Shown here: positions 308 to 31,790 of the stretch, one piece after another
How positions within the stretch are numbered: the first letter of the stretch is position 1
How the letters are laid out: every line of letters starts with the position of its first letter
Program-made: the position numbers and the translations under genes
The notes under the pieces: model-generated
Seen by the model: only the letters and a program-made list of their open reading frames with translations
The model's database searches: none
Told to the model about the DNA's origin: nothing
NCBI GenBank assembly: GCA_028692745.1
Contig: JAQUWR010000003.1
Coordinates: 7,742-40,616 of the forward strand
Direction: 5' to 3'
DNA: 32,875 bases
Source of the DNA: Minisyncoccota bacterium
GTDB taxonomy: Bacteria > Patescibacteriota > Minisyncoccia > Minisyncoccales > Minisyncoccaceae

Positions 308-2431
308 TTATTGATTATTTTTTCTCGCTTCTTTTAATGATAAATTAATTCTTCCCTGTTCGTCAATAGAGATGACCTTAACAGGAATTATATCTCCTGT
401 TTTCACAACATCCCCTACTTTTTCTACTCTTTTTTCTGATAGCTGTGAAATGTGAACTAATCCTTCTTGTCCTGGTAGTATTTCTACAAAAGCACCGAAG
501 TCAAGAATTCTTTTAACGTTACCTTGAAATATTTCTCCAACAGTTACTTCTCTGGTAATGTTGTTAATCCATTCTAATGCTTTTTTAGCAGAATCTTCTT
601 TTTCAGCGGTAATAAATATTTCCCCGGTTTCTTCTATGTCAATTAAAACATTACACTCGTCAATAATTTCATTAATAACTTTTCCTCCTGTTCCAATAAC
701 TTCACCAATTTTTTCAGGATTAATTTTAATAATATATATTCTTGGAGCAAAAGGAGAAAGACTGTTTCTTGGCTCTGGAATAATAGCTAACATTTTATCA
801 AGAATTTCTAATCTTGCTTTTTTTGATTGTGTTAATGTTTCTACAATTATTTTATCAGTAATTCCTCTTACTTTCAAGTCCATTTGTAAAGCATTGATTC
901 CATCTTTTGTCCCAGCAACCTTAAAGTCCATATCTCCGTAATGATCTTCTTCTCCTTGAACATCAGTTAATACTTTATATTTTTTTTCTTCTGTGCTTTT
1001 TGATTCGCTTGTTTCCATCATTAACCCCATCGCTATCCCAGAAACAGGTTTTTTAATTGGAACACCCCCATCCATTAAAGCTAAACAAGCAGCACAGGTT
1101 GATGCCATTGAACTTGAACCATTAGAGCATAAAACTTCAGAAACTAATCTTATTGTATATGGAAAATCTTGAGATTCTGGAATAACTGATCTTAATGCTT
1201 TTTCAGCAAGCATACCATGACCAATTTCTCTTCTACCTGGTCCTCTTAATGGACCTGTTTCTCCAACACAAGATGGTGGGAAATTGTAATGATGCATAAA
1301 TCTTTTCTTTCCATTTATTTCCATTTCTTCCATTATTTTTTGATCTCCAGGAGAGCCTAGGGTTAAAAATGATAATACTTTTGTTTGGCCCCTGCAAAAC
1401 AAGCCAGAGCCATGAGTTCTTTCAAAAAGATTAACTTTACATTCAATTTCTCTTAATTGTTGGCTATTTCTTCCATCAATTCTAATATCTTTATCTATGC
1501 CCATTTCATGAAGTAATTCTTCTCCTTGTTTTTCGAAAAAAGACAAACCATAATGTAGAGCATCTTTTTCTTCGTATTTTTCAGTTAAATATACCTTTAA
1601 TTCTTCTTTAATTTCTTCAAAAGTGCAATCTTTTTTTAAAAAAGAATTTTTAAGTCGATCCCCTAGGAATTCTTTTAAGTCTTTTTCTAAGTCTTCATTT
1701 TTAATAAATTCTTTTAGTTGTTGTTTTTCTTTACCAATTTTTTTAGTTATTTCTTTTTGGAAATTAATTAATTTTTCTTGAACATCTTTTGTTTCTTTGA
1801 TTGCTTCAATAATTTCATCTTCTTTTGCTTCTTTGAATTCAGCTTCAATCATATTAATGATTAATTCTTTTTCTGATTCTGATTTTAAAGAAGATATAGT
1901 TAAATCAAAACCATTTTCTTGTCTTTCGTTTGGTGTTGTAAAGATATTAAATTTATTGTCTTTTTTTCCAATTCTTAAAGGAGCAATTGGCCCATTCCAT
2001 GGAATATCAGATATTGAAAGAGCTAAAGAAGCAGCAAATAATGATAAAATAGAAGGATCGTTTTCTTTGTCCCAAGAAACACAAGTAGTAATAACTTGAA
2101 CTTCTCTTTTTAAGTTGCTAGGAAACAATGGTCTGATTGCCCTATCGATTAATCTAGAATTTAATATTGCTTTTTCGCTTGGACGAGATTCTCTTTTTAA
2201 AAACCTTGAACCAAGTATTTTTCCTACAGCATAATATTTTTCTTCATAGGCTACGCTTAAAGGAAAAAAATCGATTCCCTCGATTTCTTTTTTAGACATT
2301 ACGCAGGTAGCAATAATAACAGTATTGTCTAGTTTTACCCAAACAGAAGCATTAGCTCTTTCAGCTAAATTATTTATTTCTACTTCTAGAGTTTTTCCTT
2401 CAATTTCTAGTTTAAATGATTCGCTTTTCAT
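308..2431 (-). CDS. pnp: Polyribonucleotide nucleotidyltransferase (PNPase)
   Basis: 707 aa; two RNase PH-like domains, KH (KIGEVIGTGGKVINEI) and C-terminal S1 (GEIFQGNVKRILDFGAFVEILPGQEGLVHISQL). Confidence 0.98.
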   Translation of the reverse strand: MKSESFKLEIEGKTLEVEINNLAERANASVWVKLDNTVIIATCVMSKKEIEGIDFFPLSVAYEEKYYAVGKILGSRFLKRESRPSEKAILNSRLIDRAIRPLFPSNLKREVQVITTCVSWDKENDPSILSLFAASLALSISDIPWNGPIAPLRIGKKDNKFNIFTTPNERQENGFDLTISSLKSESEKELIINMIEAEFKEAKEDEIIEAIKETKDVQEKLINFQKEITKKIGKEKQQLKEFIKNEDLEKDLKEFLGDRLKNSFLKKDCTFEEIKEELKVYLTEKYEEKDALHYGLSFFEKQGEELLHEMGIDKDIRIDGRNSQQLREIECKVNLFERTHGSGLFCRGQTKVLSFLTLGSPGDQKIMEEMEINGKKRFMHHYNFPPSCVGETGPLRGPGRREIGHGMLAEKALRSVIPESQDFPYTIRLVSEVLCSNGSSSMASTCAACLALMDGGVPIKKPVSGIAMGLMMETSESKSTEEKKYKVLTDVQGEEDHYGDMDFKVAGTKDGINALQMDLKVRGITDKIIVETLTQSKKARLEILDKMLAIIPEPRNSLSPFAPRIYIIKINPEKIGEVIGTGGKVINEIIDECNVLIDIEETGEIFITAEKEDSAKKALEWINNITREVTVGEIFQGNVKRILDFGAFVEILPGQEGLVHISQLSEKRVEKVGDVVKTGDIIPVKVISIDEQGRINLSLKEARKNNQ

Positions 2432-2694
2432 GACTTAAGGCCGATCTTTTTAGTCAGCTCTTTATATTTTTTAGGATTAGTTTTTTCTAAGTATTTTAAA
2501 AGTTTTCTTCTTTTAGCAATCATTTTTAATAATCCTTTTTTAGAGTGAAAATCTTTTTTGTTTTTTTGTAAGTGAGAAAGAAGAGATCCTATTTCTTCTG
2601 ATAATAAAGCAACCTGGACTTCTGCAGAGCCAGTATCTTTTTCGTGTAATTTATGCTTACTTATTATTTTTTCTTTTTCTGTTGTTGAAATCAT
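2428..2694 (-). CDS. rpsO: 30S ribosomal protein S15
   Basis: 88 aa; HEKDTGSAEVQVALLSEEI...H..KKDFHSKKGLLKMIAKRRKLLKYL; overlaps pnp start by 4 nt. Confidence 0.98.
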   Translation of the reverse strand: MISTTEKEKIISKHKLHEKDTGSAEVQVALLSEEIGSLLSHLQKNKKDFHSKKGLLKMIAKRRKLLKYLEKTNPKKYKELTKKIGLKS

Positions 2695-2719
2695 ATTTTT
2701 TAATTAATTTATCTTTTAT

Positions 2720-2795
2720 TGGTGCCCCGTGAGGGACTCGAACCCACGACCTTGAAGTTAAGAGCTTCCTGCTCTACCAGCTGAGCTAACGGGGC
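2720..2795 (-). tRNA. tRNA-Lys(CTT), 3' CCA encoded
   Basis: Rev. comp. GCCCCGTTAGCTCAGCTGGTAGAGCAGGAAGCTCTTAACTTCAAGGTCGTGGGTTCGAGTCCCTCACGGGGCACCA; cloverleaf, anticodon CTT. Confidence 0.95.
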
Positions 2796-3233
2796 TTAAG
2801 GGTTGTTTGGATTTTGGAAAAAATTAAGTGGCCAAGGGTCTCCTCCACCGGTTAAAAAGGATACAAATCCATAAACAATTAACCAGGCCGCGTAAACTAC
2901 TAATACGCCGATTATTCCATAAGTTATCATTTTTTTCCCTGTCTGTATTTTTGAAGGATCTCCTCCTGCTGTCATCATTGTTATTCCGCCAAAAGCAAAC
3001 CATATGATTGCTAGAGGAGGAACAACATTGAACATTATAAAGGTAATAACTCTGTTTATTAAGCAAAACAAATCATCGAAAGTACAAGGATCTTGTCCTT
3101 CATTTCCACAAAAAACAATAGGGTCTCCTGCTTTATATTCTGGACAATCAGCAACTGCAGTTGTTGTTATTGAAAATAAAAAAAATAGAACCAAGACTAA
3201 AACTATTTTTTTTGGTATGATGTTTGGATTCAT
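2796..3233 (-). CDS. Small secreted/membrane protein resembling TrbC/VirB2-type pilin
   Basis: 145 aa; N-terminal signal-like segment, Cys-containing linker, two hydrophobic helices with GGDPSKIQTGKKMITYGIIGVLVVYAAWLIV. Confidence 0.75.
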   Translation of the reverse strand: MNPNIIPKKIVLVLVLFFLFSITTTAVADCPEYKAGDPIVFCGNEGQDPCTFDDLFCLINRVITFIMFNVVPPLAIIWFAFGGITMMTAGGDPSKIQTGKKMITYGIIGVLVVYAAWLIVYGFVSFLTGGGDPWPLNFFQNPNNP

Positions 3234-3279
3234 CTTGTTGTAACTATAGTATTTTTTTAATAAAAAATCAAGGTCTCTG

Positions 3280-3351
3280 TGCCCCTGGCAAGATTCGAAC
3301 TCACATCATTGGTTCCGAAGACCAGTGCTCTATCCGTTGAGCTACAGGGGC
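3280..3351 (-). tRNA. tRNA-Arg(TCG)
   Basis: Rev. comp. GCCCCTGTAGCTCAACGGATAGAGCACTGGTCTTCGGAACCAATGATGTGAGTTCGAATCTTGCCAGGGGCA; anticodon TCG; CCA not encoded. Confidence 0.93.
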
Positions 3352-4022
3352 TTTTTGTTTTTTAAGAACTTAAGTCTAAAAGGAGGAACAGTATCTTGAT
3401 CAAAAATTAGTCGATTTTCTATTAATTCTTTTTTCTTTTCTCCTTTTGTCTCAAATAATTCCTTTATAGGGCTTAATCTTTTAATAAAAATAGGGATTAA
3501 GGATAGAATAAATAAGTACCCTACTGGTTCAAAGATAAATCCCCCTTTAAAAGAAATAAAAATACCTAGAATTAAAGAAATAATTGTTCCAATTGAAGCT
3601 GTCCAGATAATAGCAAAGAAAATAGTAGGAATTAAAACAATAAAAAGAGTTATGGGTGATAAAGCTAATACAGCGCCTATTAAACTAGCCAAACCTCTTC
3701 CTCCTTGAAAATTCATGAATATTGACCAATTGTGTCCAATTATTGTCATTAATCCACAAAATACTTGCATTGTATCGCTTAAACCAAAGTATTTTGCTAA
3801 ATAAATTGCTAAAAAAGCTTTGCCAATATCTAGAAACATTGTTAATCCTCCTTCTAAGATACCAATGTTTTTAGTTACATTTGATCCAGAGCTTTTTTTC
3901 CAGCCAATATCATAGATATTTTTACCAGAGCTTATTTTAGTAACAATATAAGCAAAGGGAATTGATCCTAAAACATAGGATAAAAATAAAAAGACAAAAT
4001 TAATTAAACATTGATTAATCAT
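3342..4022 (-). CDS. Divergent PlsY-family (acyl-phosphate:glycerol-3-phosphate acyltransferase-like) membrane protein, copy 1
   Basis: 226 aa; LGSIPFAYIVTKI, GHNWSIFMNFQGGRGLASLIG; motif 1 altered (GWKKSSGSNVTKN). Confidence 0.8.
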   Translation of the reverse strand: MINQCLINFVFLFLSYVLGSIPFAYIVTKISSGKNIYDIGWKKSSGSNVTKNIGILEGGLTMFLDIGKAFLAIYLAKYFGLSDTMQVFCGLMTIIGHNWSIFMNFQGGRGLASLIGAVLALSPITLFIVLIPTIFFAIIWTASIGTIISLILGIFISFKGGFIFEPVGYLFILSLIPIFIKRLSPIKELFETKGEKKKELIENRLIFDQDTVPPFRLKFLKNKKPL

Positions 4023-4680
4023 TTAAATAAGTCTTATTTTTTATTTTTTCAAGCTGTTCTTTTAGCCTGTCTTTATGAGCAATTAAAATTAATGGTGTAA
4101 CAAACAAGGCTGGAAAGAACAATATAGTATTATATGCATAAAACCATAAAACAGCAATTGTTTCTCCGGTTAATCTTCCCAATACTTGATCAGAAACAGC
4201 ATGTTTTAAGAATTTTTTATTTATTTTTCTTTTAGCCATTAATTCAAATAAAACCATAAAAAATACAATAATTAATATCCAAACTAAAAATGATTTCCAG
4301 TCAAGATATAATAATATTCCTAAAAAACTAGCTGCTCCTCTTCCCCCTTTTAGCTTTAAAAATATTGAATAATTATGCCCCAAAATAACAAAGAATGAAG
4401 CTAAGGTAATTGCAAGAATACTATTGGGAAATAATATTTGAGCAATTATAATTGATAATATTGCCTTGCCCATATCTAGAGCAGTAACAGCGATAAAAGA
4501 AATCAAACCAATTAACTTCCCTTTTTCTTTAGAAGCTGTTCTTAGGGTGTTAAGAGCACCCATGTTTTTTGAGCCAAAAGTTCTAATATCTTGTTTAAAA
4601 AATAATTTATTTACAACTAAAGCAAAAGGAATTGAACCTAATAAATAAGAAAATAAAATAATAAAAATATAGTTTATCAT
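4015..4680 (-). CDS. Divergent PlsY-family membrane protein, copy 2
   Basis: 221 aa; LGSIPFALVVNKL, FGSKNMGALNTLR, GHNYSIFLKLKGGRGAASFLG. Confidence 0.83.
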   Translation of the reverse strand: MINYIFIILFSYLLGSIPFALVVNKLFFKQDIRTFGSKNMGALNTLRTASKEKGKLIGLISFIAVTALDMGKAILSIIIAQILFPNSILAITLASFFVILGHNYSIFLKLKGGRGAASFLGILLYLDWKSFLVWILIIVFFMVLFELMAKRKINKKFLKHAVSDQVLGRLTGETIAVLWFYAYNTILFFPALFVTPLILIAHKDRLKEQLEKIKNKTYLND

Positions 4681-4692
4681 AATTAAAAATTA

Positions 4693-5547
4693 TTAATCTT
4701 CTAATGTACAAACAAGTAAAGAGCCTGGACCAACATGAGCGCCAATAACAAGACTAATTAAGCTGATGAATTCAATTGTTGATTCAGGAAAATTATCTTC
4801 AATTAATGTTTTTAACTTTAATGCTTCTTCTAAATTATCAGCATGAGTTATAGCTATTTTTAGTTTTGGGTTTTTTAGCCCTTGCACTTCTTTTAATAAT
4901 GCTTCAGCAGTATCTTTAGCTTTCATTTTAACAGTAGTTGGTTTAATTAGGCCGTCTTTAATTCCAAGTATTGGTCTTAATCCTAATTTTTGTGCATTTT
5001 CTAAAATACTAGCAATAGTAGAGTTTATTCTTCCTCCTGTTTCTAGCCACCTTGGGCTTTCTATCATTCCGAAGACATGAATTTTAGAATTATCTAAAGA
5101 ATTATATATTTCTTCAGCTGTTTTTCCTTGAGCGACTAATTCAGCAGCTTTTATTCCTAACAATGCTTCAGTTGCATCTGCGTTCATTGTGTCAAAAATA
5201 AAAACCTTGTTTTGCAATTCTTCTTTAAGCATTTTTCTAGCTTGAAAAGCAGAATTATATGTACCAGATATTTTTGAACTAATGGTTAAGCATAATACTT
5301 CTTGACCAGTAGATAATATTTCTTCAAATATTTTTTTGTACACTCCTATTGATGGTTGAGATGTTTTGGGGTAAGTTTTTAAACCATTTTTTTTAGCATT
5401 TCGCATTTTTTCAAATATGGTTTTTCCTTCAATGTTTGCTTCTTCTTTCCATTCCATAACAAAAGGAACTAGGTGCATATTATATTTTTCTGCTATTTCT
5501 AAGGGGATGGAAGAACTTTCTCCTATTACAATAGTTGTTTTTTTCAT
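4693..5547 (-). CDS. DegV-family / FakB-type fatty-acid-binding protein (copy 1)
   Basis: 284 aa; KTSQPS motif, SSKISGTYNSA, C-terminal IGAHVGPGSL. Confidence 0.92.
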   Translation of the reverse strand: MKKTTIVIGESSSIPLEIAEKYNMHLVPFVMEWKEEANIEGKTIFEKMRNAKKNGLKTYPKTSQPSIGVYKKIFEEILSTGQEVLCLTISSKISGTYNSAFQARKMLKEELQNKVFIFDTMNADATEALLGIKAAELVAQGKTAEEIYNSLDNSKIHVFGMIESPRWLETGGRINSTIASILENAQKLGLRPILGIKDGLIKPTTVKMKAKDTAEALLKEVQGLKNPKLKIAITHADNLEEALKLKTLIEDNFPESTIEFISLISLVIGAHVGPGSLLVCTLED

Positions 5548-5566
5548 ATATATTATTAATTAATAA

Positions 5567-6427
5567 TTATTCGTTCCATGACAACACTAAAGCTCCTGGA
5601 CCAATATGACTTCCAATAGGAAGACAAACAAAGCTAGAAAAAATTACTTCAACGTTAATTTTTGAAAGAAGGTCTTTTAATTTTTTTGCTTCTTCTAAAT
5701 TATCAGCATGAGTAATGCCAGCTATTATTTTTTTTCCAGATTGTCTTATTTTTTGAGTATTTTTTTCAAATTCTTCAAATAAAATTTTAGACATTTCTTT
5801 TACTCTTTTTATTCCAGCGATAGCTAATTTTCCATCTTTAAAACCAAACAAAGGTTTTATTTTCATTCTTTCTGCGCCTTTGTTTATGAAACGAGGAATT
5901 CTTCCGCTGGCTTCAAGCCATTTTCCATTTTCATAAAGACCAAGTAGTTTTATTTTTTTTGTTTCTTGTTCTAATTTTTCAATTATTTCTTTTATATTAT
6001 AATTATTTTTTATAAGCTCTAATGTTTTTAATACAAATAATCCTTCCCCAGCACTTCCGTTTAATGTGTCAAAAATATGAACCCTTTCTTTTAATTCTTG
6101 AGCTAGAAATTTTTTAGCCTGAAGCGCAGAATTATATGTACCAGAAACTTTTGAGCTTATGGTAATACAAATTATTTCTTTATAATTTTTTAATTTTTCT
6201 TGAAAAGCTTTAGCAAAATCATTAATAGAGGGTTGAGATGTTTTAGCGAAAGTTATTTTATTTTCTTTTTCCGCTTGTCTCATTTTTTCATAAATATTTC
6301 CAGGATATTTTTCTAATTCTTGTAAATCTAATTTAAATTTAACAAGAGAAATATCATTATTATTGATAATTTCTTCTGGTAAATCAATTGCTTCGTCAGC
6401 AACAATACCAATATTTTTTTCTTCCAT
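5567..6427 (-). CDS. DegV-family / FakB-type fatty-acid-binding protein (copy 2)
   Basis: 286 aa; KTSQPS, SSKVSGTYNSA, IGSHIGPGALVL. Confidence 0.92.
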   Translation of the reverse strand: MEEKNIGIVADEAIDLPEEIINNNDISLVKFKLDLQELEKYPGNIYEKMRQAEKENKITFAKTSQPSINDFAKAFQEKLKNYKEIICITISSKVSGTYNSALQAKKFLAQELKERVHIFDTLNGSAGEGLFVLKTLELIKNNYNIKEIIEKLEQETKKIKLLGLYENGKWLEASGRIPRFINKGAERMKIKPLFGFKDGKLAIAGIKRVKEMSKILFEEFEKNTQKIRQSGKKIIAGITHADNLEEAKKLKDLLSKINVEVIFSSFVCLPIGSHIGPGALVLSWNE

Positions 6428-6428
6428 A

Positions 6429-8210
6429 TTATTTTACTATCCATCCCACTATTAAGCTTTCTGGGCAAGCATTAATACTGGTTACTGGATCAGTAATTGT
6501 TACAAAAGAGATATCAGCTCTTTTATATTTTTTAAGACTGCTTTTGAGCTGTTCGGCCTGCTCTTGATTGTCACCATGAGCAATAACAGCTCTTATTCTT
6601 CCTCCTTTTTTAATTTCTTTAGCTGTAATGTGGTCTATTCTTTTAAATAAGATATTAGCAAAATCTTTACTTCTAGCAGGACCAGTTTTTGTTAATTTTC
6701 CATCTTTAATTTGTGCTAAGACATGAACATAATCTTTTTTTTCTTTAGACCAGAAGTTGCCCTTCCACCATCTTTCTTCTTCTAAGACAAAGCAAACATT
6801 TATTTGAGGAATTATTTTTTCTAAACGTGTTTGTATTTCTTTAATGTTTCGGTGTTCTTTAATTAATTCTATTGCTTCGAGAATTAATAGTGATTGACCA
6901 GCGCTAATATTTTTTGAATCAATAATAAAAACTTTTTCCTGATCTTTTTGGTTTAATAAAGATTTTGCTTTTAAAGCAGCTTTATAGCTTTCTGATAATT
7001 TTGAACTTGAAACAACACATAATACGTTTTTGAATTTTTCTAATTGTTTTTTATATGCTTCAAGAAAAAATTCATGAGAAATAGGCTCTATTTTTGGTTT
7101 TTGTATTAAACCTTGTTTTTTTGCTTCTTTTATTTTTTCGCACACAGTATTGCCTGGTAAACTTTCTCCTTCTGGCCAAGTAATTTTAAATGGAATAACC
7201 TCAATATCATAATGATCAATTATTTTTGCTGTTAAGCCAGCTCTTTCATCAATAATAATTCCAATAGATACGCTTTCAATTGATTTTTCCCCAATTACTT
7301 CTCTAGCCATGTCTTGGATTTTTAGGTTTTCGATATCTCCTATTCCTTTAATAATGTCTCTTACTTCATATGGGCTATCTGTATGAATATGTATTTTTGT
7401 TCTTGATTTTATTTGAATAATGTCTAAACAATTACCAAGATAATTTAATTTATTTTTAATTGATTTTTCGTTTTCTTCTACATTTCTAAGCAAAGCCACT
7501 ACTTCGTAACGATTAGAAATAATTTGAATAAATCTTTTTGGGCTAATAGTTTCTTTTTCAAAAGAGAATGTTTTGGGAGAAGAAATATCTTCTTGTTCTT
7601 TCAAAATATCTAAATATGTTTCTAAAATCATTAAAAAACCGAGGCCACCTGCATCAACAACCCCAGCTTTTTTAAGTATTTCCATTTTATTTGGTGTGTT
7701 TTCTAAAGCTATATGCGCTTGTTCTAAAGATTTATAGAAAACATTAACAATGTCTTTTTCTTTTTTAGATTCTTCCTTGAAAGACAAAGCAAATGCTTCA
7801 ACAATATCTAGAATGGTTCCTTCTCTTGGATTTTGAATAGAGTCTTTAGCTCTTTCGTATCCTTTTTCAAAAGCTTCTCCTAATTGAACAGCATTAATTG
7901 TGTTTTCTTTTCCTAATTCAGGAAGAAACCCAGCTAAAAAACCAGTATAAATAATTCCAGCATTGCCTTGAGCACCAGTTAAAGCTCCTTCTAAAACACT
8001 ATTACTTAATTCTTCAACTGAAGAAAAATCTTTATCTTCAATTTGTTCTTTCATTCCCTTAAGAGTGGCAGCTAAATTATTACCAGTATCTTGATCAGGC
8101 ACAGGAAAAACATTTATTTTATTGATTTGCTCTTTGTCCCTCTCTATTCTTTCACAAGAAAAGAGAATCATTTTTTTAAGTTCATTTTGTGTTATTTCTT
8201 GCATATACAA
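6429..8210 (-). CDS. FakA/YloV-type fatty acid kinase: DAK2 domain plus DegV-like C-terminal domain
   Basis: 593 aa; N-terminal KINVFPVPDQDTGNNLAATLKG and ALTGAQGNAGII (DAK2), GVVDAGGLGF; C-terminus from about aa 313 is DegV-like with altered ligand motifs. Confidence 0.9.
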   Translation of the reverse strand: MYMQEITQNELKKMILFSCERIERDKEQINKINVFPVPDQDTGNNLAATLKGMKEQIEDKDFSSVEELSNSVLEGALTGAQGNAGIIYTGFLAGFLPELGKENTINAVQLGEAFEKGYERAKDSIQNPREGTILDIVEAFALSFKEESKKEKDIVNVFYKSLEQAHIALENTPNKMEILKKAGVVDAGGLGFLMILETYLDILKEQEDISSPKTFSFEKETISPKRFIQIISNRYEVVALLRNVEENEKSIKNKLNYLGNCLDIIQIKSRTKIHIHTDSPYEVRDIIKGIGDIENLKIQDMAREVIGEKSIESVSIGIIIDERAGLTAKIIDHYDIEVIPFKITWPEGESLPGNTVCEKIKEAKKQGLIQKPKIEPISHEFFLEAYKKQLEKFKNVLCVVSSSKLSESYKAALKAKSLLNQKDQEKVFIIDSKNISAGQSLLILEAIELIKEHRNIKEIQTRLEKIIPQINVCFVLEEERWWKGNFWSKEKKDYVHVLAQIKDGKLTKTGPARSKDFANILFKRIDHITAKEIKKGGRIRAVIAHGDNQEQAEQLKSSLKKYKRADISFVTITDPVTSINACPESLIVGWIVK

Positions 8211-8246
8211 AAAAGGAAATAAAAAGTATTTCTTTATTTAAAAAAT

Positions 8247-8897
8247 TTATTTTATCTTTTTTTCTAAGTCTTCAAGGATTTTTGCAGCAAAGTCTTTTCC
8301 GCCGAGACCAAAAGATAGGCCGAAAAATAATACAATAAAAAGAACAAACCCTATAAAGATTGTTAAAATTAAGTCAGGAACTATTTTTAATTGATAAAGT
8401 ATTGCTAGTATTGCCAGTATCCAGGCAACAGAAGAAATAATATCTCCCAATACCCCTGAATATGCAATTTTTTCTTTTTCTAAACTTACAACAACAATTT
8501 TTTTAGAAAAATCAGCTAAAAATACAGTGAATATAAAAATAATAATAGCTATAAAAATATTAGGGAAATAATTTATTATTCCTTGAATAAAAAGATTGAC
8601 TTGGTTTAATCCTAATATATCAAAAGAAATTGTTAGAAACAATAAGATGAAAAAAATACAAACAATGTCTCCCAGGAATTTAGATACATTAATTTGAGCA
8701 TTATAGCGATCAAAGAAATCCTCCCAGCCTAATGTTTTTAACATTTGATTAAGGCGAAATTTTTTTAATAATTCAATAGTATAGTCTTTTATTTTTTTAC
8801 CAACAATTATTCCAACAAATAAAATTAATAAAGACCAAATTAAATTTGGTAAGCTTAAAATTATGTTTTGAATAAAAGCATTTATTAAATTTTGCAT
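8247..8897 (-). CDS. Conserved TM-helix / mechanosensitive-channel-like membrane protein
   Basis: 216 aa; LPNLIWSLLILFVGIIVGKKIKDYTIELLKKFRL... followed by several hydrophobic helices. Confidence 0.65.
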   Translation of the reverse strand: MQNLINAFIQNIILSLPNLIWSLLILFVGIIVGKKIKDYTIELLKKFRLNQMLKTLGWEDFFDRYNAQINVSKFLGDIVCIFFILLFLTISFDILGLNQVNLFIQGIINYFPNIFIAIIIFIFTVFLADFSKKIVVVSLEKEKIAYSGVLGDIISSVAWILAILAILYQLKIVPDLILTIFIGFVLFIVLFFGLSFGLGGKDFAAKILEDLEKKIK

Positions 8898-8932
8898 AAA
8901 ATTAACAATTATTTTTACAAATTAATTCTACC

Positions 8933-9493
8933 CTACCATTTAGCATTATGCAAGCCCATATTATACCCAGCCCTATTAAAGAAAATATGTAAGAAAAATG
9001 TCAAGATAATTAAACAAAGCCAAAATTTAATCTCTAATTTTAAAAATGGTTGAATAAAAATAAAAGCACCAATAACATAATTAGTTTGATCAAAAGGAAT
9101 AAATTTACTGCCTGGTTTTAAATCTAAGCGTCTTTTAATAAAAGCAAAGAATAAATCACCAAAAATAATGCCTATTGATAATAAAAATCCCAATAAAAAA
9201 CCATTTATTTGGGGAAATACATTAAATCCAATGGTTTGATAATGATCTAAACCTAGAAAATTATGGATATAAATAAAAATTGGCATTAATAAGGTGCAAA
9301 TTATTATTTCAGAAATTACCCCTCTCCATGTTTTGTGGTCTCCTAGAATAGGCTTATTGTTAATGGTTTTTCCTCCATCAACTGGTTTTCCTAATGCTTT
9401 TAAAAAATTAAATTTATAAGCTAAGGGTGGTGATGCATTAGCTAAATAAGCTGGACCAAAAAAATATATACAAGATAATAAATAATATAACAT
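8933..9493 (-). CDS. CDP-archaeol synthase (CarS/DUF46)-family CDP-lipid synthase
   Basis: 186 aa; FFGPAYLANASPPL, LGDHKTWRG, GDLFFAFIKRRLDLKPGSKFIPFDQ. Confidence 0.88.
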   Translation of the reverse strand: MLYYLLSCIYFFGPAYLANASPPLAYKFNFLKALGKPVDGGKTINNKPILGDHKTWRGVISEIIICTLLMPIFIYIHNFLGLDHYQTIGFNVFPQINGFLLGFLLSIGIIFGDLFFAFIKRRLDLKPGSKFIPFDQTNYVIGAFIFIQPFLKLEIKFWLCLIILTFFLHIFFNRAGYNMGLHNAKW

Positions 9494-9494
9494 T

Positions 9495-10094
9495 TTACTT
9501 AAATAATTTTGATTCTTTTCCTTGTTTTAATCTTTGTATGTTTTCTCTGTGAGCCCACCATATAATAATAATATATAGGAAGCTTAATATTAAATAAGAA
9601 ACAGAGTGAGTTTTATACCAGAACAATATTGGTAAAGATAAAACTATAATTAAATTAGTTAAACTCATGATATTAATAATTAATAACATGCATATCCATG
9701 AACCAAGAAATATTAATGAATATTTTAATCCTAAGATCATAAATAATGTTGCGGCAACAGTAGAAACTCCTTTGCCTCCTTTAAATTTAAGCCAAACAGG
9801 AAAAACATGCCCAATTACTGGAGATATTGAAACAATAGCCATTTGCCAATCTATAATTAAATATTGACTAGCTATGTATATAGGTAAAATAGCTTTTGAA
9901 ATATCAAGAAGCCCAACCAATATTCCATATTTAAAACCAAGATTTCTTGCTACATTGGTTCCCCCGATATTACCACTTCCCTGTTTTCTAACATCAATAT
10001 TTTTTATTTTTCCTATTAAATATCCAAAAGGGATTGACCCTGACAAGTATCCTAAGATTGTAAATATTATTAATAGTATAATTTGATTTTCCAT
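9495..10094 (-). CDS. plsY: Acyl-phosphate:glycerol-3-phosphate acyltransferase PlsY (canonical copy)
   Basis: 199 aa; GSGNIGGTNVARN, GHVFPVWLKFKGGKGVST, HRENIQRLKQGKE: all three PlsY motifs. Confidence 0.95.
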   Translation of the reverse strand: MENQIILLIIFTILGYLSGSIPFGYLIGKIKNIDVRKQGSGNIGGTNVARNLGFKYGILVGLLDISKAILPIYIASQYLIIDWQMAIVSISPVIGHVFPVWLKFKGGKGVSTVAATLFMILGLKYSLIFLGSWICMLLIINIMSLTNLIIVLSLPILFWYKTHSVSYLILSFLYIIIIWWAHRENIQRLKQGKESKLFK

Positions 10095-10107
10095 ATATTT
10101 ATTTTAA

Positions 10108-10123
10108 TGTTTCATGTGGAACA
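10108..10123. promoter_or_regulatory. parS-like palindrome (degenerate)
   Basis: TGTTTCATGTGGAACA; near match to parS consensus TGTTNCACGTGNAACA. Confidence 0.5.
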
Positions 10124-10209
10124 TGTTGATAAAAAATTTATAATTTTATTGTATCATATTGTGTAAAACATGGGTAATTATTATTAGGTTAATAATAAAT
10201 TTATATTTT

Positions 10210-10225
10210 TGTTTCACGTGAAACC
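10210..10225. promoter_or_regulatory. parS-like palindrome
   Basis: TGTTTCACGTGAAACC; 15/16 to TGTTTCACGTGAAACA. Confidence 0.65.
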
Positions 10226-10226
10226 C

Positions 10227-11717
10227 TTAAGTAATCCAATATTTTTCTTTTGTCATTTTGTCTTTTTTTGTTTCAACTTTTTTTATTTCTATTCTTGCTT
10301 TTTTTGTTAGCAAGTCTAATTCTTTATCATTTAATAAGTTTAATTCTTTTAACATAGAACTTAAATATTTTTTAGTATTGTTTTTGGGATTTTTTAATAC
10401 TTGCTCAAGCATTATGTCAAGATATTGTCCTATTTTTTTACCAGGCTTAATGTTTAGTTGTTTAACAATATCATTGCCATTTATTTTAAGCATTTTAACT
10501 GAAATAGGATCTTTTGATACTTTTTCAATCATGTACTTTAAATGTCTTAATTTGTATGGCTCTGCTTTAGGGCAACCTGACCCTATTCTATCTGCCATTC
10601 TTAGCTTTAGTAAATCATTCATATTTTCAATGCCAGCATTTTTAATTAATCTTCTAACTGAAGATTCTCCCACTTCCTCTACATTGTAATAAAAAAGATG
10701 ATATCTTATTAAATTAACAATTTTATCAATATCTTTTTTAGAAAACTTTAAACGATTTAAAGCTTTTTCAGCCATTTTTGCTCCAACTATTTCATGGTTA
10801 TAAAAAGTAGCATTTTCTCCAAAGCCTTTTTTTGTAGCTGGTTTTCCTATGTCGTGTAATAAAGCAGCCATTTTTATATGAAAATTAAAATCTTTTTTAG
10901 TAGCATAATTTAAACATTCAAGATTGTGCTTATAGCAATCATATATATGATGTTTGTTTTGTTTAACATTAATGCCTAATTCTAGCTCAGGTAAAATGTA
11001 TTGTAATAATTTAGTTTTTCTTAATGCTTCAATGCCAAACCCAGCATTATTACTATTAATGATCTTTATTAATTCATCTCTTATCCTTTCTTTAGCTGAT
11101 TTTTCTAGTAAATAACTGTATTTAATTATTGCTTTTTCTGTTTGTTTTTCTATTTTCCAATCATTTCCTAGTGTTGTTTGAAACCTAATAGCTCTCATCA
11201 TTCTTAAATAGTCTTCAGAAAATCTTTGCTCAGGAGAACCAACAGTTTTAATAATCTTATTTTTTAAGTCTTTTTGGCCTGAAAATAAGTCAATAATTTG
11301 ATAGTCATTTTTAGAAACAGGGGTAATAGCAATAGCATTTATAGTAAAATCTCTTCTATTAAGGTCTTCTTCAATATGTTTTGACCAATTTACTTTATCA
11401 GGGTGCCTAGAGTCAGAATAAGTTGATTCTGAACGATAGGTTGTTATTTCAATAATTTCATTTTTAGGAAAAATAATACCCACGGTTCCAAAGCTATTTT
11501 CATAGAATGTTTTAATGTTTAATTCTTCAAAAACAGCTTGTATTTGCTCAGGAATAGCATTAGTAGTAATATCCCAATCAGCTGGAGTTTTGTCCATAAA
11601 TAAATCTCTAGTGCAACCACCAACTATATAGGCTTCAAATCCTTTTTGCTTTAAAGAATTTATACATAAGAGAACATTTTTAGGGATATTGAATTTTATT
11701 TTTTTTGTTTCAGTCAT
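10227..11717 (-). CDS. cca: CCA tRNA nucleotidyltransferase / poly(A) polymerase family with HD domain
   Basis: 496 aa; AYIVGGCTRDLFMDKTPADWDITTNA, RRDFTINAIA, HD motif LLHDIGKP. Confidence 0.93.
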   Translation of the reverse strand: MTETKKIKFNIPKNVLLCINSLKQKGFEAYIVGGCTRDLFMDKTPADWDITTNAIPEQIQAVFEELNIKTFYENSFGTVGIIFPKNEIIEITTYRSESTYSDSRHPDKVNWSKHIEEDLNRRDFTINAIAITPVSKNDYQIIDLFSGQKDLKNKIIKTVGSPEQRFSEDYLRMMRAIRFQTTLGNDWKIEKQTEKAIIKYSYLLEKSAKERIRDELIKIINSNNAGFGIEALRKTKLLQYILPELELGINVKQNKHHIYDCYKHNLECLNYATKKDFNFHIKMAALLHDIGKPATKKGFGENATFYNHEIVGAKMAEKALNRLKFSKKDIDKIVNLIRYHLFYYNVEEVGESSVRRLIKNAGIENMNDLLKLRMADRIGSGCPKAEPYKLRHLKYMIEKVSKDPISVKMLKINGNDIVKQLNIKPGKKIGQYLDIMLEQVLKNPKNNTKKYLSSMLKELNLLNDKELDLLTKKARIEIKKVETKKDKMTKEKYWIT

Positions 11718-11751
11718 TTTGATAATTGTATTTTATCCTAAAATCCTTCTC

Positions 11752-11780
11752 TTGACAATCCCCTTGTTTTAGAATAGTAT
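11752..11780 (+). promoter_or_regulatory. Sigma70-type promoter for nusA operon
   Basis: TTGACA (11752-11757), 17-nt spacer, TAGTAT (11775-11780). Confidence 0.65.
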
Positions 11781-11807
11781 GAGTACATAAAGATTTGAGT
11801 GATTATT

Positions 11808-11831
11808 GTCGGAGTGATTTCCGATTTTTTT
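11808..11831 (+). terminator. Short hairpin plus T-tract in nusA leader (attenuator-like)
   Basis: TCGGAG-TGAT-TTCCGA followed by T7, between promoter and nusA ATG. Confidence 0.4.
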
Positions 11832-11857
11832 AATAAATATAAAGAAAAAATAAACAT

Positions 11858-13069
11858 ATGGACATGCAAAATTTTCTATTAGCCATAAGTCAGTTAGCAG
11901 AAGAAAAGGGCATACAGCATGAAAAAGTTCTTGAAACAGTAGAGCATGCTTTAGCTTCAGCATACAAAAAAGAATATGGTAAAAAGGGACAAATAATCAA
12001 AGCTAAAATAAACTCTAAAACAGGAGAAACTGAGTTTTGGAGAGAAAAATTAGTTGTTGATCATACAATGGTATATATACCTAAGGCAGAAGAAGGAGAA
12101 GAAGAAATAAAAATTAAAAAATCCTATTTACCTAAAGAAGACGAATTAAGTAATGAAGATATAGGAGAATTAGAAATAGGGACAAAAAGAGTAAGGTATA
12201 ACTCAGAAAGACATATTTTAATTGAAGAATTAGAAGATTCTAAGTTTAAACCAGGACAAGAAATGATTATTCCTTTGGAGAACAAGCAAGGATTTGGAAG
12301 AATAGCCGCCCAAACAGCTAAACAAGTTGTTTTACAAAAAATTAGAGAAGCGGAAAAAGAAAATATTCTTGAAGAATATAAGTCAAAAGAAGGAGAAATA
12401 GTATCAGGTATTGTTCAAAGAATTGAAGGTTCTAATATATATTTTGATATAGGTAAAAGCTTAGGAATATTACCAAAAGAAGAGCAAATAAGAGGCGAAT
12501 TCTATAAAGAAGGACAAAGATTAAAACTATATGTTTTAAAAGTAGATACTACGCCTAAAGGCCCAATAATTATTCTTTCAAGGGCTTATCCTAAATTAAT
12601 TTCTAAATTATTTGAATTAGAAGTACCAGAAATAGCATCAGGTCAAATAGAAATTAAATCAGTAGCTAGAGAGCCAGGTTCTAGAACAAAGATATCTGTT
12701 GAATCTTTGGCAGAAGGCGTTGATCCTATTGGAGCAATGGTTGGACAGCGTGGAGTAAGAGTAGCAGCAGTAATTTCTGAATTAGGAGGTGAAAAAATTG
12801 ATGTTATTGAATATTCTGATGATCCAGTAAAATATATTACTAATGCATTATCTCCAGCTAAAGTAATTGATGTTCAAATATTACCTAAAAATACAGGTTT
12901 AGTTATAGTTCCTCATGATCAATTATCTTTAGCTATTGGAAAAGAAGGTCAAAACGTAAGACTTTCTTCCAAATTAACTGGTTGGAAAATAGATGTTAAG
13001 AGTGATGAACAACTAAAAGCAGAAGATGAAGAAGAGTTAAATATAGAAGACGAAGAAGATAAAGAATAA
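11858..13069 (+). CDS. nusA: Transcription termination/antitermination factor NusA
   Basis: 403 aa; NusA N-terminal domain, S1, KH domains (GAMVGQRGVRVAAVISELGGEKIDVIEYS, LAIGKEGQNVRLSSKLTGWKIDV). Confidence 0.97.
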   Translation: MDMQNFLLAISQLAEEKGIQHEKVLETVEHALASAYKKEYGKKGQIIKAKINSKTGETEFWREKLVVDHTMVYIPKAEEGEEEIKIKKSYLPKEDELSNEDIGELEIGTKRVRYNSERHILIEELEDSKFKPGQEMIIPLENKQGFGRIAAQTAKQVVLQKIREAEKENILEEYKSKEGEIVSGIVQRIEGSNIYFDIGKSLGILPKEEQIRGEFYKEGQRLKLYVLKVDTTPKGPIIILSRAYPKLISKLFELEVPEIASGQIEIKSVAREPGSRTKISVESLAEGVDPIGAMVGQRGVRVAAVISELGGEKIDVIEYSDDPVKYITNALSPAKVIDVQILPKNTGLVIVPHDQLSLAIGKEGQNVRLSSKLTGWKIDVKSDEQLKAEDEEELNIEDEEDKE

Positions 13070-13081
13070 AACAAAAAAACA

Positions 13082-14272
13082 ATGGAAATTAAAGTTAAAG
13101 ATGTTTCTAACACAAAAAAGAAAATAGAAATAGAAATTAATGCAGAAGAATTTAATGTTTTTTATGATAAAGCCTTTAAATTAATGACTAAAGAGCTTGA
13201 AATGCCTGGTTTTAGAAAAGGAATGGTTCCAGAATCAATGGCTAAAGAAAAAATTAATGAAAATAATGTTTTAAATTATGCTGCTGAGCTAATAATTAAT
13301 GAAAAATGGAGCGAATATTTAAAAGAAACAGACTTAGAGATTGTTTCTCAGCCAGTAATAGATGTAATTAAGGTAGCTAAAGACAATCCTTTTGTTTTTT
13401 CAGCAGAAGTAGAAACATTAAAAGATATTGATTTACCTGATTTTAAGGCAATTGCCAAAACAATAAAAAAACAAGAAGTAAAAGTTGAAGAAAAAGAGAT
13501 TAATGACGCTATTACATGGCTTCAACAATCAAGAGCTATATTTAAAGATAAAGAAGGAGCTGTAGAAACAGGTGATTTTGTTGAAATTACTTTATTTGAA
13601 AACGAAAAAGAGCAAAAAGATGGTTTTATTGTTGGAAAAGGGCACGAATTAGATACAGTTTTAATTAATATGAATCCTGGAGAAGAAAAAGAAGCTAAGC
13701 CAGGTCTTAAAATTATACTAAATTCAGTTAAAAAAGTTGAAATACCTGAAATTAATGATGAATTTGTTAAAACATTAGGTCAATTCAACACAATTGAAGA
13801 ATTAAAGAAAAACATTGAACAAGGATTAAAACAAGAGAAAGAAACAGCAATAAAACAAAAACAAAGAGCAGAAGTACTAGAAAAGATTGCCACAAAGATA
13901 AAAATAGACATTCCTCAGTCATTAGTTGAAAGAGAAGCCCAGGGATTAATTAGTAATTTACAAAATAGAGTTAAAAACGAATTAAATATTAGTTTTGAGG
14001 AGTATTTAGATCAAACAAAGAAAACATTAGAACAAGTTCAAAAAGAATTTGAAAAAATAGCTTATGATAGAGTAAGAAACTTCTTGATTATAAGGCAAAT
14101 AATTAAAAATCAAGGAATTGAAGTAAAAAAAGAAGAAATAGAAGATAGGATTAAAGAAATTTTAGCTAATTATCCAGAAGAATCTAAAAAACAAATTGAC
14201 TTAGATAGAATTAAGCTATATATTGAAGATGAAATTAAGAATGAAAAGGCTTTTGCCTTATTAAACCTTTAA
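13082..14272 (+). CDS. tig: Trigger factor (shortened PPIase domain)
   Basis: 396 aa; ribosome-binding N-terminus with MPGFRKGMVPESMAKE; central GDFVEITLF segment; helical C-terminus. Confidence 0.9.
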   Translation: MEIKVKDVSNTKKKIEIEINAEEFNVFYDKAFKLMTKELEMPGFRKGMVPESMAKEKINENNVLNYAAELIINEKWSEYLKETDLEIVSQPVIDVIKVAKDNPFVFSAEVETLKDIDLPDFKAIAKTIKKQEVKVEEKEINDAITWLQQSRAIFKDKEGAVETGDFVEITLFENEKEQKDGFIVGKGHELDTVLINMNPGEEKEAKPGLKIILNSVKKVEIPEINDEFVKTLGQFNTIEELKKNIEQGLKQEKETAIKQKQRAEVLEKIATKIKIDIPQSLVEREAQGLISNLQNRVKNELNISFEEYLDQTKKTLEQVQKEFEKIAYDRVRNFLIIRQIIKNQGIEVKKEEIEDRIKEILANYPEESKKQIDLDRIKLYIEDEIKNEKAFALLNL

Positions 14273-15084: not shown

Positions 15085-18000
15085 ATGAATAATAAAATTT
15101 TTAAAACAATACTTTTCTTTTCAATAATGTCGATGATTTTTGTTGGAGGAAATGTTTTTGCTGCTAGTTGTGGATTAGCCACTGAACAATCATGGGGATA
15201 TTGGGATCCATATCCTTCAGAAAGTTTATTGTGTAGTGATGGTAATTTTGTATCAGGAACGATGATGTATAACTCAACTGATGAAACTTGGTTTTGGGCT
15301 TGTTCTGGCGGAGAAGAAGGATCACCTTATGTTTTTTGTAATGCTTCAATGATAGCGAACAATGGATGGAAAGTGAAAGCTCCTTGGGCTTATCCAAGGA
15401 CGGCTCATACGGTTGCATCCAGTAGTAGTAAGATTTATGCGATTGGAGGATATCGTCTTCCTTTAGAAGGTCCTTATAATGCTATAGAAGAGTATAATCC
15501 GTCTAGCAACGTGTGGACAGCAAAAAGTCATACTAATTCGTATGATCGTGGTATGGCAGCATATGTTGATGGTTATGTATATTTTATGGGCGGGAAAGAA
15601 TCAATATATATTGATTCAAATAAAAGATATCGCATATCAAATGATTCTTGGGCAGCGAGGGCTGATATGCCTACTGCTAGAGAGAGTGCTACCACAGCCG
15701 TGGTAAATAATAAAATTTATGTGATAGGGGGGAGAAATTCTGATGGTGTTTTAAATACAAACGAAGAGTATGATCCAGCTACAAATACCTGGACCACCAA
15801 AGCATCCATGCCTACTAAAAGATATGTGACGGGAGCAGTAACCGTCAATAATAAAATTTATGTGATAGGGGGTTATGTGCCTCATCTTCCTGGGTCAACG
15901 GGAGTAAACGAGGAATACGATCCAGCTACAAATACCTGGACCACCAAAGCATCCATGCCAACGCCTAGGGGACATGTTTTTCCTGTAGTATATAATAATA
16001 AAATTTATGTGATAGGGGGGTATAACACAATTCTTAATTCATGGGTAACCGTTAATGAAGTTTATGACCCAGTCACTGATACTTGGGTCACTGCGGATAG
16101 CTTGCCTCAAGCTGTAAGCGATGCTGTTGTCGCCGTTGCTAACGATAAAATTTATGTTATGGGTGGATATGATGGAAAAATTAATTTAGTATATGACCCA
16201 ACCTCTGTAGCTGTTGATGGTGTTTGCGGTTCTTCTAGCGGAGGAATTTTTTCATCAGAATTAGATATTGTTAATCTTTGTGATAAAGGAGAAAATACAG
16301 AAATTAGTTATAATGGAGGATTAAATAATACATGGACATGGAGTTGTACAGGAATTAATGAAGGAAGTACAGCAAATTGTTCAGCAGGTGCTCCAGCTCC
16401 AGCTGGTACATTTGACAGCGTCGAATATAATGGCTCGGGAATAGGAACAATCTCGGTTAATGTTACAGAGTTATCTGTTGAGCCAACAAAATTACAAATA
16501 AGATGGAGTACAGAAAATAATCCACCAGAGGTTGAAGACATTAAAAAATGGGTTGATGTTTCAAGTACAGGAATTAAAACAGTTTCAATGGAAGATCTTG
16601 TTGATGGTGAAACATATTATGTTTCTGTTTTAATATCAGCAAATAATGTTTTAACTGATTTAGGAACAAAAACTTTAACAACAAACAACAAGCCAGTTAT
16701 TATTAATGGAACATTAAATTATTCAGTTAATGTTTCTGAACAAGTTAATTTTACTGGTTTTTCAGCTTCAGACGCTGACAATGATCTACTATCTTATTTA
16801 TGGTCATGCCTCCCTGAAAATGAAGGAGGAGGCACGTTTATTAATAGTAATTTAGCTAATCCTACATATATTGCGCCAGCTTCTCCAATAGAAGATGAAT
16901 GTTTTTTGTATGTATTTGATGGAAAAGAAGTAACATGGTCTGATATAGTTACAGTTTCAGTTACAGAAGAATCTAATGTCCAATGTGGTTCGTCTCATGG
17001 AGGATCATTTACAACTGCTCCTTCAACTAACCTATGTTTAGCTGGAACTCCAATCTTTATTACTAGTAATGGTTCTTGGTATTGGACATGTTCTTCTTGG
17101 GTACAAAAAGAGGAATATAGACCTTGGTCGGGAATATCAATGTCTTCAACAGGACAATATCAGACAGCGGTTACAAGGTGGACGCCCATTTCAGATTCAG
17201 AAATTTATATTTCAAGCGATTATGGTGCAACATGGACAATGGTAAAAAGCACTAGTGAATTAGGATGGTTTGACGTTGATGTTTCTTCAACAGGACAATA
17301 TCAAACAGCGGTTGGTCTATCAAAGATTCATACATCAAGCGATTATGGTGCAACATGGACTCAAAGAAAAAATGATTCGAATAATTATTATAAAGTTGCA
17401 ATTTCAAATGATGGAAAATATCAAACAGCAGGAACACAAGATTCTTACGATGGAAAAGTTTATACATCAAGTGATTATGGTGCAACATGGACCGCAACAT
17501 TATCTGGTACAGGGGGTCATTTTTTAGGAATAGATATTTCTTCAACAGGACAATATCAAACAGCATCTGAAACAAATAATATTATTTATACATCAAGTGA
17601 TTATGGTGCAACATGGACCGCAACATTATCTGGTACAGGGAGTGATTTTTATGGAATAGGTCTTTCTTCAACAGGACAATATCAAACAATAACGACTGAA
17701 AACGGAGTAATTTTTTCAAGCGATTATGGTGTAACATGGACATCGAATAATCTAGATGCCTATTTACGAGAGGTAGATGTTTCAGATAGTGGTCAAATTC
17801 AGGTTGCGGTTGGTAAAGAAATTTATACATCAAGTGATTATGGTGCAACATGGACCGCAACATTATCTGGTACAGGGAGTGATTTTTATGGAATAGGTCT
17901 TTCTTCAACAGGACAATATCAAACAGCAGTTGCTTATCTTCATAAAGAAGGGTCTGCATGGATATACAATGGACCTATGTATACCTCTAATGATTATGAA

Positions 18001-20061: not shown

Positions 20062-20086
20062 TAATTAAATAATAAAAAATAAACTT

Positions 20087-30771: not shown

Positions 30772-31775
30772 GGCACACACATATGGCGGATTTAATTATT
30801 TATTTTTAAAGCTTCATTGGGCGTTAATCCGTTCAGTGCACAATGTTCTGTATTGTTGTATTCTTCGTTCCACTTTTTCATTTTGTTTTTCAACTCTATC
30901 ACGGTTTTAAATTTAAATCTATCATAGAAATGTTCTTGATCTGTTCTGTGAGACCTCTTTACTTTTCCATTCTGGGCAGGTTTGCCTGGATCAATCAAGT
31001 AATGAATAATATTTCTATCTCTACACACAATATCAAAGTCATGGATTCTTGGATTAAAAGGGTTTGTCGATTTATTATACCCCGTGTATCTGTTTGTAAA
31101 GCACGAACCATTATCTGTTTTGATTGCCCGTATTCTGAATGGAGATATTTTAATTATCTTATTCAATAATTTAATTGCACAATCATTTCCCATTCCATCA
31201 TATATTTCTAAATATCTCCATCTTGATGCACAATCAATAGCCGTGAATTGATAGTATTTAAGCCCATTAATCAAGTCTGGCACGTATTTAATAGCTACTT
31301 CCACTAATTCTCCTTTTAACAAAGGAACCTTGATATATTTGTATTTAATTTTTCTTGTTCTGTATTTCCTAGTTAATCCCCCTGTCTTGATTATTTTTCC
31401 AACAGTTCTTTCTTTTATGGGTATGTTTTCTTTTTCTAGTTTCCATTTCAATTTTTTGGCACAGACACGAGTTTCTTTTCTTAATTCAATTATTCTTTCT
31501 TTAATTCTAATGGGTTTTTCATTAGGACACGTTCTCGGCCTAGTTGATTTAGGAATTAATCCTTCTTCTCCGTATTCCTTGTAGAGAGAAACCCATCGTT
31601 CTAAAGTTTTTTTTCCTTGAGAAAAAAGAATAGCTGCATCCTTTAACCTAACCTCTTTGTTTACAATGGGCAAAACCCATCTTAAACGTTCTTCTAAAGC
31701 ATCTTTTGGTAGTTTTGTACACAATATGTATTGAGTTTTCCATATTTCTTGAAAAACCGCCATGTGTGTGTACAC
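30772..31775 (-). mobile_element. IS481-like insertion sequence (approximate ends at imperfect TIRs)
   Basis: GGCACACACATATGGCGG (30772-30789) and CCGCCATGTGTGTGTACAC (31757-31775) flank transposase. Confidence 0.7.
30792..31775 (-). CDS. IS481-like DDE transposase
   Basis: 327 aa; HTH, TAIDCAS (D), IKTDNGS (D), GKPAQNGKVKRSHRTDQEHFY (Glu position is Lys). Confidence 0.88.
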   Translation of the reverse strand: MYTHMAVFQEIWKTQYILCTKLPKDALEERLRWVLPIVNKEVRLKDAAILFSQGKKTLERWVSLYKEYGEEGLIPKSTRPRTCPNEKPIRIKERIIELRKETRVCAKKLKWKLEKENIPIKERTVGKIIKTGGLTRKYRTRKIKYKYIKVPLLKGELVEVAIKYVPDLINGLKYYQFTAIDCASRWRYLEIYDGMGNDCAIKLLNKIIKISPFRIRAIKTDNGSCFTNRYTGYNKSTNPFNPRIHDFDIVCRDRNIIHYLIDPGKPAQNGKVKRSHRTDQEHFYDRFKFKTVIELKNKMKKWNEEYNNTEHCALNGLTPNEALKINN

Positions 31776-31790
31776 ATTACCTTCCTAAGT

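Follow-up and report, generated by a model that had tools for sequence, protein, structure and literature searches.

A conserved gene cluster in a Parcubacterium that probably connects scavenged fatty acids to a CDP-activated membrane lipid precursor

We analyzed a stretch of 32,875 nucleotides (nt), which we call the window, from contig JAQUWR010000003.1 (positions 7,742 to 40,616) of the Minisyncoccota bacterium assembly GCA_028692745.1. The source genome is that of an ultra-small Parcubacterium and is a draft of 553,530 bases in 30 contigs that is 90.7% complete. The window contains a putative lipid operon of eight minus-strand genes, and we made the domain calls on its proteins with Pfam and NCBIfam profile searches. 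In transcription order, the first gene (9495..10094) encodes PlsY1, a canonical acyl-phosphate dependent glycerol-3-phosphate (G3P) acyltransferase (PF02660 5e-48, TIGR00023 8.9e-51). It is followed by a CarS-family cytidine triphosphate (CTP) transferase at 8933..9493 (PF01864 9.5e-30), which we propose as a cytidine diphosphate (CDP)-diacylglycerol synthase instead of CdsA, and by an MscS-type conserved transmembrane-helix protein at 8247..8897 (PF05552 3.2e-14) that does not have the MscS beta domain. Then come a FakA-like kinase of 593 amino acids (aa) in a single open reading frame (ORF) at 6429..8210, with Dak2 (3.7e-32), FakA middle (6.5e-13) and DegV (1.3e-31) domains, and two copies of FakB from the DegV family, the first at 5567..6427 (DegV 1.2e-49) and the second at 4693..5547 (DegV 2.8e-50). 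The last two genes encode divergent PlsY paralogs, PlsY2 at 4015..4680 (PF02660 8.5e-34) and PlsY3 at 3342..4022 (PF02660 1.8e-29). The start of FakA could be a TTG at 8210 or an ATG at 8204. The original prediction had listed these eight genes, and the profiles bore out all eight ORFs and their families.

The gaps between the genes are 1, 35, 36, 1, 19 and 12 nt in transcription order, and the last junction is an overlap of 8 nt. We infer from this spacing and from the conserved gene order that the genes are co-transcribed; in a scan for sigma-70 promoters and terminators, shuffled sequence scored as well as the operon did. The 3' end of PlsY3 shares 10 nt (3342-3351) with a tRNA-Arg gene (3279-3351) of the same strand.

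For comparison we used 60 genomes within the order and 295 genomes phylum-wide, with the relatives mostly labelled Parcubacteria, Paceibacterota or Patescibacteria bacteria. The order PlsY1, CarS, transmembrane-helix protein, FakA, FakB, FakB, PlsY2, PlsY3 recurs in other genera of the source family, often with cca upstream and a type IV secretion system (T4SS)-type pilin, rpsO and pnp downstream. It had been suggested that the order should be looked for in related genomes, and it is kept across the family; this recurrence indicates that the eight-gene grouping is more than chance. Over the 60 genomes we counted CarS in 35, Dak2 in 32 and PlsY in 33 (a 36th match in the CarS search, in G043, is the CdsA of that genome). 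All 32 genomes with Dak2 have PlsY, and all 35 with CarS have PlsY or PlsC. Fisher tests with one genome per family, which ignore relatedness above the family, gave p=2e-9 for Dak2 with PlsY, p=2e-5 for CarS with Dak2 and p=4e-6 for CarS with Ino1 (myo-inositol-1-phosphate synthase). PlsX was found in none of the 60 genomes, true CdsA in one, and a clear ketoacyl synthase in one (G049), with a weak partial match in G010. Phylum-wide, Dak2 is rare and was present in 3 of 295 genomes, the source genome included.

The FakA residues for ATP and Mg (N32, D38, D40, T41, N82 and D185) are kept in all 27 aligned sequences, as is the catalytic His pair, H282 and H284. Cys240, the remaining member of the Cys240-His282-His284 triad, is missing from all 27, and because this defining residue was tested for and not found we call the protein FakA-like. 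One distant Patescibacteria FakA (L174) retains the YCTE motif. We considered whether the Cys had moved to C261 in the same domain, and rejected this as a general rule since only 19 of the 27 have Cys there and the others have Ser. In the C-terminal DegV/FakB-like domain of FakA the FakB-type ligand residues are degenerate, and this appears to be a FakB-like domain that would itself bind no fatty acid, as fits the docking function that FakA_C has in S. aureus. Both FakB copies keep these residues; they have the DegV fold profile with conserved TSQP, SSxxSGT, the GGR Arg and a C-terminal His, and the TSQP Thr and Ser, the Arg and the His are kept in most orthologs of both copies. Both FakB scores are under the FakB1 equivalog cut-off.

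The key residues of PlsY are S35, T41, R45, H92, K104, S142, H177 and N180 (PMC5700162). PlsY1 scores above the TIGR00023 cut-off and has both the acyl-phosphate site and the G3P clamp. Its orthologs have S35, T41, R45, K104, H177 and N180 in 22 of 22 sequences and H92 in 21 of 22, and S142, which is Asn in PlsY1, is the only listed key residue that is changed. PlsY2 and PlsY3 are above the Pfam cut-off and below the TIGR00023 equivalog cut-off. In the residue table PlsY2 (17 orthologs) has T41 changed to L, K104 to R and N180 to R. PlsY3 (13 orthologs) retains the acyl-phosphate site, with H92, the GGxG loop and a hydroxyl at 41 (T41 to S), and has lost the G3P clamp (S35 to W, N37 to K, R45 to K, K104 to R, H177 to R and N180 to P). 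Thus, of the five clamp residues S35, R45, K104, N180 and H177, PlsY3 alters all and PlsY2 alters K104 and N180. The PlsY3 signature also occurs in other families (G021, G026, G030, G032, G037, G038 and G057), and a low-confidence AlphaFold model of PlsY3 matches PlsY 5xj5 with TM scores of 0.66/0.74. A tree has three old PlsY groups, and the Aquifex PlsY sits with PlsY1 (99/95). Judged by sequence, PlsY2 and PlsY3 diverged as paralogs long ago and are not equivalent to PlsY1.

PlsY3 would then bind acyl-phosphate and use an acceptor other than G3P, for which lysophosphatidic acid is a natural guess where PlsC is absent. A serious contender, which we hold to be somewhat less likely than not, is that neither PlsY2 nor PlsY3 is an sn-2 acyltransferase, and that they use another acceptor such as a scavenged lysophospholipid, or that PlsY3 acylates glycerol-phosphate via a different clamp. 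In G026, G032 and G057 we found no PlsY other than the PlsY3 type, so it is able to stand alone, and lysolipids are enriched in Candidate Phyla Radiation (CPR) fractions (PMC7242380). Set against this, genomes without PlsC and PlsB that have three PlsY and the full pathway from CarS to Ino1 would, if they have diacyl lipids, require some second acyltransferase.

The residues that the CarS-family enzyme has in common with A. pernix CarS (D39, K54, D113, K120, R121, D135, Q136 and H169, window numbering) are invariant in 34 of 34 sequences, and Asn138 replaces a CarS Asp in 32 of 34. The profile and the catalytic residues place the protein in the family; its score of 123.6 is under the NCBIfam equivalog cut-off of 148, and therefore an archaeal substrate is not implied. 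By profile search this ORF is the sole CTP-transferase match in the source genome, where the search for a full-length CTP_transf_1 (CdsA) match gave only positions 169-238 of 264, on this same ORF. CarS is named for its reaction on archaeal lipid, and the A. fulgidus enzyme favours the archaeal substrate (PMC9385802), so we considered whether it acts here on an archaeal-type isoprenoid ether lipid that the cell makes or takes up. We looked for isoprenoid-lipid genes (dxs, ispB, ubiA and ispU) in the source genome and did not find them, and therefore CarS is probably not acting on a home-made archaeal lipid. Because the gene is also embedded in an acyltransferase operon, and every genome with CarS has PlsY or PlsC, we rejected the archaeal role as very improbable. 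The operon suggests that a CarS-type enzyme is able to work in an ester-lipid bacterium.

The operon had been described as self-contained, which did not hold, as the headgroup genes and gpsA are located elsewhere. GpsA was found in the source genome at 38% identity. Contig C24 of the source genome has Ino1, a CDP-alcohol phosphotransferase, PHP and HAD phosphoesterases, a FadD-like ligase and an acyl-reductase-like gene. The phosphotransferase is PIPS-like (PIPS, phosphatidylinositol-phosphate synthase; C24 stretch 12529-13095; best match archaetidylinositol-phosphate synthase 6e-37, under its cut-off; PDB 6h53 1.3e-15) and Ino1 is about 1.1 kb from it. A PHP-domain gene overlaps the PIPS-like gene (C24 stretch 11888-13095), and in other families this pair adjoins CarS, divergently in G021, G030, G034, G038 and G046 and on the same strand in G037. 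The end product is likely phosphatidylinositol phosphate, and the PHP or HAD enzyme may be the phosphatase that acts on it.

On the minus strand of the same contig (C24 stretch 3888-6630), a FadD-like long-chain acyl-CoA ligase of 560 aa lies beside an acyl-ACP-reductase-like gene (ACP, acyl carrier protein; TIGR04058 1.8e-21, PDB 6jzu). The pair is common to the source genome and the close relative G003 and could make fatty aldehydes, and the ligase is a possible second route of fatty-acid activation. Scavenged fatty acids might even be activated by FadD-type ligation in place of Fak, with FakA and FakB serving signalling or storage. The presence of this ligase and the loss of Cys240 from FakA would fit such a route, which we still think quite improbable, as FadD occurs at >50% identity in only 4 of the 60 genomes (G000, G003, G007 and G013), none of them showing PlsC, and has no match in the near-complete relative G005. 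We also considered whether PlsC receives its acyl donor through FadD, and rejected this because the two do not co-occur in the sample.

The original prediction had proposed a whole-genome check for fab genes, plsX, plsC and cdsA, and this came back negative for the source genome. A tblastn search with E. coli PlsX, FabHDGFZI, AcpP, AccBC, CdsA and PlsC gave no significant match there, while the ParC and RnhB controls matched; no PlsC or PlsB family members were found by profile search, and PlsB, GlpK, ClsA and PssA were not found. For the present assembly we therefore rejected a canonical fatty-acid synthesis (FAS), PlsX and CdsA pathway elsewhere in the genome. We had also considered taking the absence of PlsC as a sign that FAS is absent, and rejected this as G026 and G031 carry thiolase-type FAS genes without a PlsC match. 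Since PlsC is an unreliable marker in this respect, we directly searched the whole genome of G005, which is 97% complete in 18 contigs. G005 holds the complete Fak-PlsY-CarS operon with three PlsY, Ino1, the PIPS-like gene and gpsA, and the search found no thiolase, FabZ-K, FabK, PlsC, acyl-CoA carboxylase, fadD, plsX, plsB or cdsA in it. By gene content, a pure scavenging form of the predicted pathway exists in this near-complete genome.

The thiolase-type genes form a block in other members of the order. In G001 and G002 the cluster consists of thiolase, FabG, a FabZ-FabK fusion, FabK, PlsC, biotin carboxylase, BCCP, BirA and carboxyltransferase, with the thiolase seen in G001 and the G002 stretch ending short of its position (G001 contig C2, stretch 1000-14000, at 896-10836 of the stretch; G002 contig C6, 18000-28684). 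It looks like fatty-acid synthesis without a ketoacyl synthase or ACP. Most genomes of the order with PlsC carry this block. In other families the block, with as many of its genes as the contigs reach, comes directly after FakA or is between FakA and the PlsY2/FakB genes (G032, G037, G048, G021 and G057), or comes after CarS, contiguous with CarS and the transmembrane-helix gene (G046, G054 and G025). One such locus on G021 contig C1, at about 76000-107000 and read apart from 89000-94000, brings together most of a lipid pathway and has PlsY1, HAD, FakB, a PIPS-like gene, PHP, CarS, the transmembrane-helix gene, FakA, the FAS block, PlsC, carboxylase, PlsY2, FakB and PlsY3.

This contiguity raises the alternative that Fak and PlsY recycle or channel fatty acids the cell makes itself, with the locus derived from a larger one with thiolase-type FAS and scavenging secondary or partial. 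The genus-mates G001, G002 and G004 do keep the block with PlsC, at a site away from the Fak locus. For the source genome we consider this alternative unlikely, since none of 12 block proteins matches it at E 1e-3, and in G005 the only matches are a cis-prenyltransferase and two generic short-chain reductases. If the gaps are independent, a single locus would be missed in both the source genome (90.7%) and G003, its nearest relative (83%, no PlsC), with a chance of about 1.6%. The simplest reading is that the source operon would be the remainder after loss of the FAS block. The suggested lack of fatty acid synthesis agrees with the source genome and G005, but does not extend to the genus, as G001, G002 and G004 have thiolase-type FAS.

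Taken together, we think it likely that this operon covers one half, acyl supply and CDP activation, of a membrane-lipid pathway fed by scavenged fatty acids. The FakB proteins would bind free scavenged fatty acids, and the FakA-like kinase would phosphorylate them to acyl-phosphate. PlsY1 would transfer the acyl group to G3P from GpsA, giving lysophosphatidic acid. Phosphatidic acid would come from a second transfer that again uses acyl-phosphate, for which PlsY3 or PlsY2 is the most plausible enzyme. CarS would convert this to a CDP-lipid, from which the unlinked inositol-phosphate transferase, supplied by myo-inositol-1-phosphate synthase, would make phosphatidylinositol phosphate. All of these enzymatic steps are predicted from sequence, and the second acylation and the inositol headgroup are the most conditional. 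The route from scavenged fatty acid through acyl-phosphate and lysophosphatidic acid to a CDP-lipid had been proposed before; its Fak/PlsY/CarS logic stood, as the gene content, the order and the FakB, PlsY1 and CarS residues are kept, but FakA has no Cys240 and the three PlsY are not equivalent. A stronger version, which is tentative and which we lean slightly against, is that the whole membrane depends on a single acyl donor, the acyl-phosphate made from scavenged fatty acids. PlsY2 or PlsY3 would then replace PlsC as a lysophosphatidic acid acyltransferase that uses acyl-phosphate, a CarS-family enzyme would replace CdsA on fatty-acyl phosphatidic acid, and the result would be a phosphatidylinositol pathway without ACP, PlsX, PlsC, PlsB or CdsA.

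Several points count against the scavenging pathway, and it is weakest at the Cys-less FakA, the acceptor of PlsY2 and PlsY3, the lipid substrate of CarS and the gaps in the draft genome. The C240A change in S. aureus FakA lowers activity >100-fold, that is, by over two orders of magnitude (PMC9136124), and all 27 aligned FakA sequences lack this Cys. Some genomes hold PlsY2/PlsY3 paralogs together with PlsC. A. fulgidus CarS failed to complement an E. coli cdsA mutant (PMC9385802). The FadD-like and acyl-reductase-like genes imply acyl metabolism of some other kind, we identified no protein for fatty-acid uptake, and with the source genome at 90.7% an absent gene may sit in a gap.

The MscS-type transmembrane-helix gene adjoins CarS or FakA in most relatives that have the operon. 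Its protein gave a low-confidence AlphaFold model with no fold match in PDB, and its role is perhaps related to lipid or tension. Elsewhere in the window, a tRNA-Lys gene (2720-2795) abuts the end (2796) of the T4SS-pilin gene, two predicted secreted proteins of very large size (1658 and 1470 aa) that carry repeats of the CGSSxGGSF type are at 15085-24499, and two adjacent transposase-like ORFs are on the minus strand at 30792-32772, near the contig end.

The lipid uptake mechanisms of Patescibacteria were described as not identified in a 2024 review (PMC11665869). We searched the literature on fatty acid kinase, DegV, CarS and phosphatidylinositol in Patescibacteria, with most subscription journals outside the coverage, and found no description of this operon. 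It names candidate enzymes for membrane-lipid acquisition, as a conserved unit in one order that is rare in the phylum, and an operon from fatty acid to phospholipid precursor would be a concrete, testable answer on the lipid supply of cells that are apparently unable to make fatty acids. The PlsY paralogs may perform work that is usually done by PlsC. The thiolase-type FAS operon, independent of ketoacyl synthase and ACP and present in many genomes of the order, is a strong candidate for separate study.

The closest known system is FakAB-PlsY of S. aureus, where the Dak2 kinase FakA with FakB makes acyl-phosphate, the PlsY donor, and FakA has a FakB-like C-terminal domain (PMC9136124); there are two FakB here. 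Unlike in S. aureus, Fak and PlsY are in one operon with CarS, there is no PlsX, ACP or type II FAS, FakA is without Cys240, and there are three PlsY paralogs. Compared with Aquifex aeolicus PlsY (5xj5), PlsY1 has nearly whole acyl-phosphate and G3P sites and PlsY3 keeps the fold and the acyl-phosphate site, whereas PlsY2 and PlsY3 form old clades of their own in which G3P-binding residues are altered. The CarS protein shares family and catalytic residues with the archaeal CDP-archaeol synthase (5guf), and differs in its bacterial host without detected isoprenoid-lipid genes, its linkage to fatty-acyl transferases and Asn138 in place of Asp. In Nealsonbacteria, PlsY and PlsC are present and PlsX is absent, and the source of acyl-phosphate was left as a question by Probst et al. 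2020 (PMC7242380), whose main text mentions neither DegV nor a CDP enzyme. Both are Patescibacteria with PlsY and without PlsX, and the Fak operon in this window is a candidate for the missing step.

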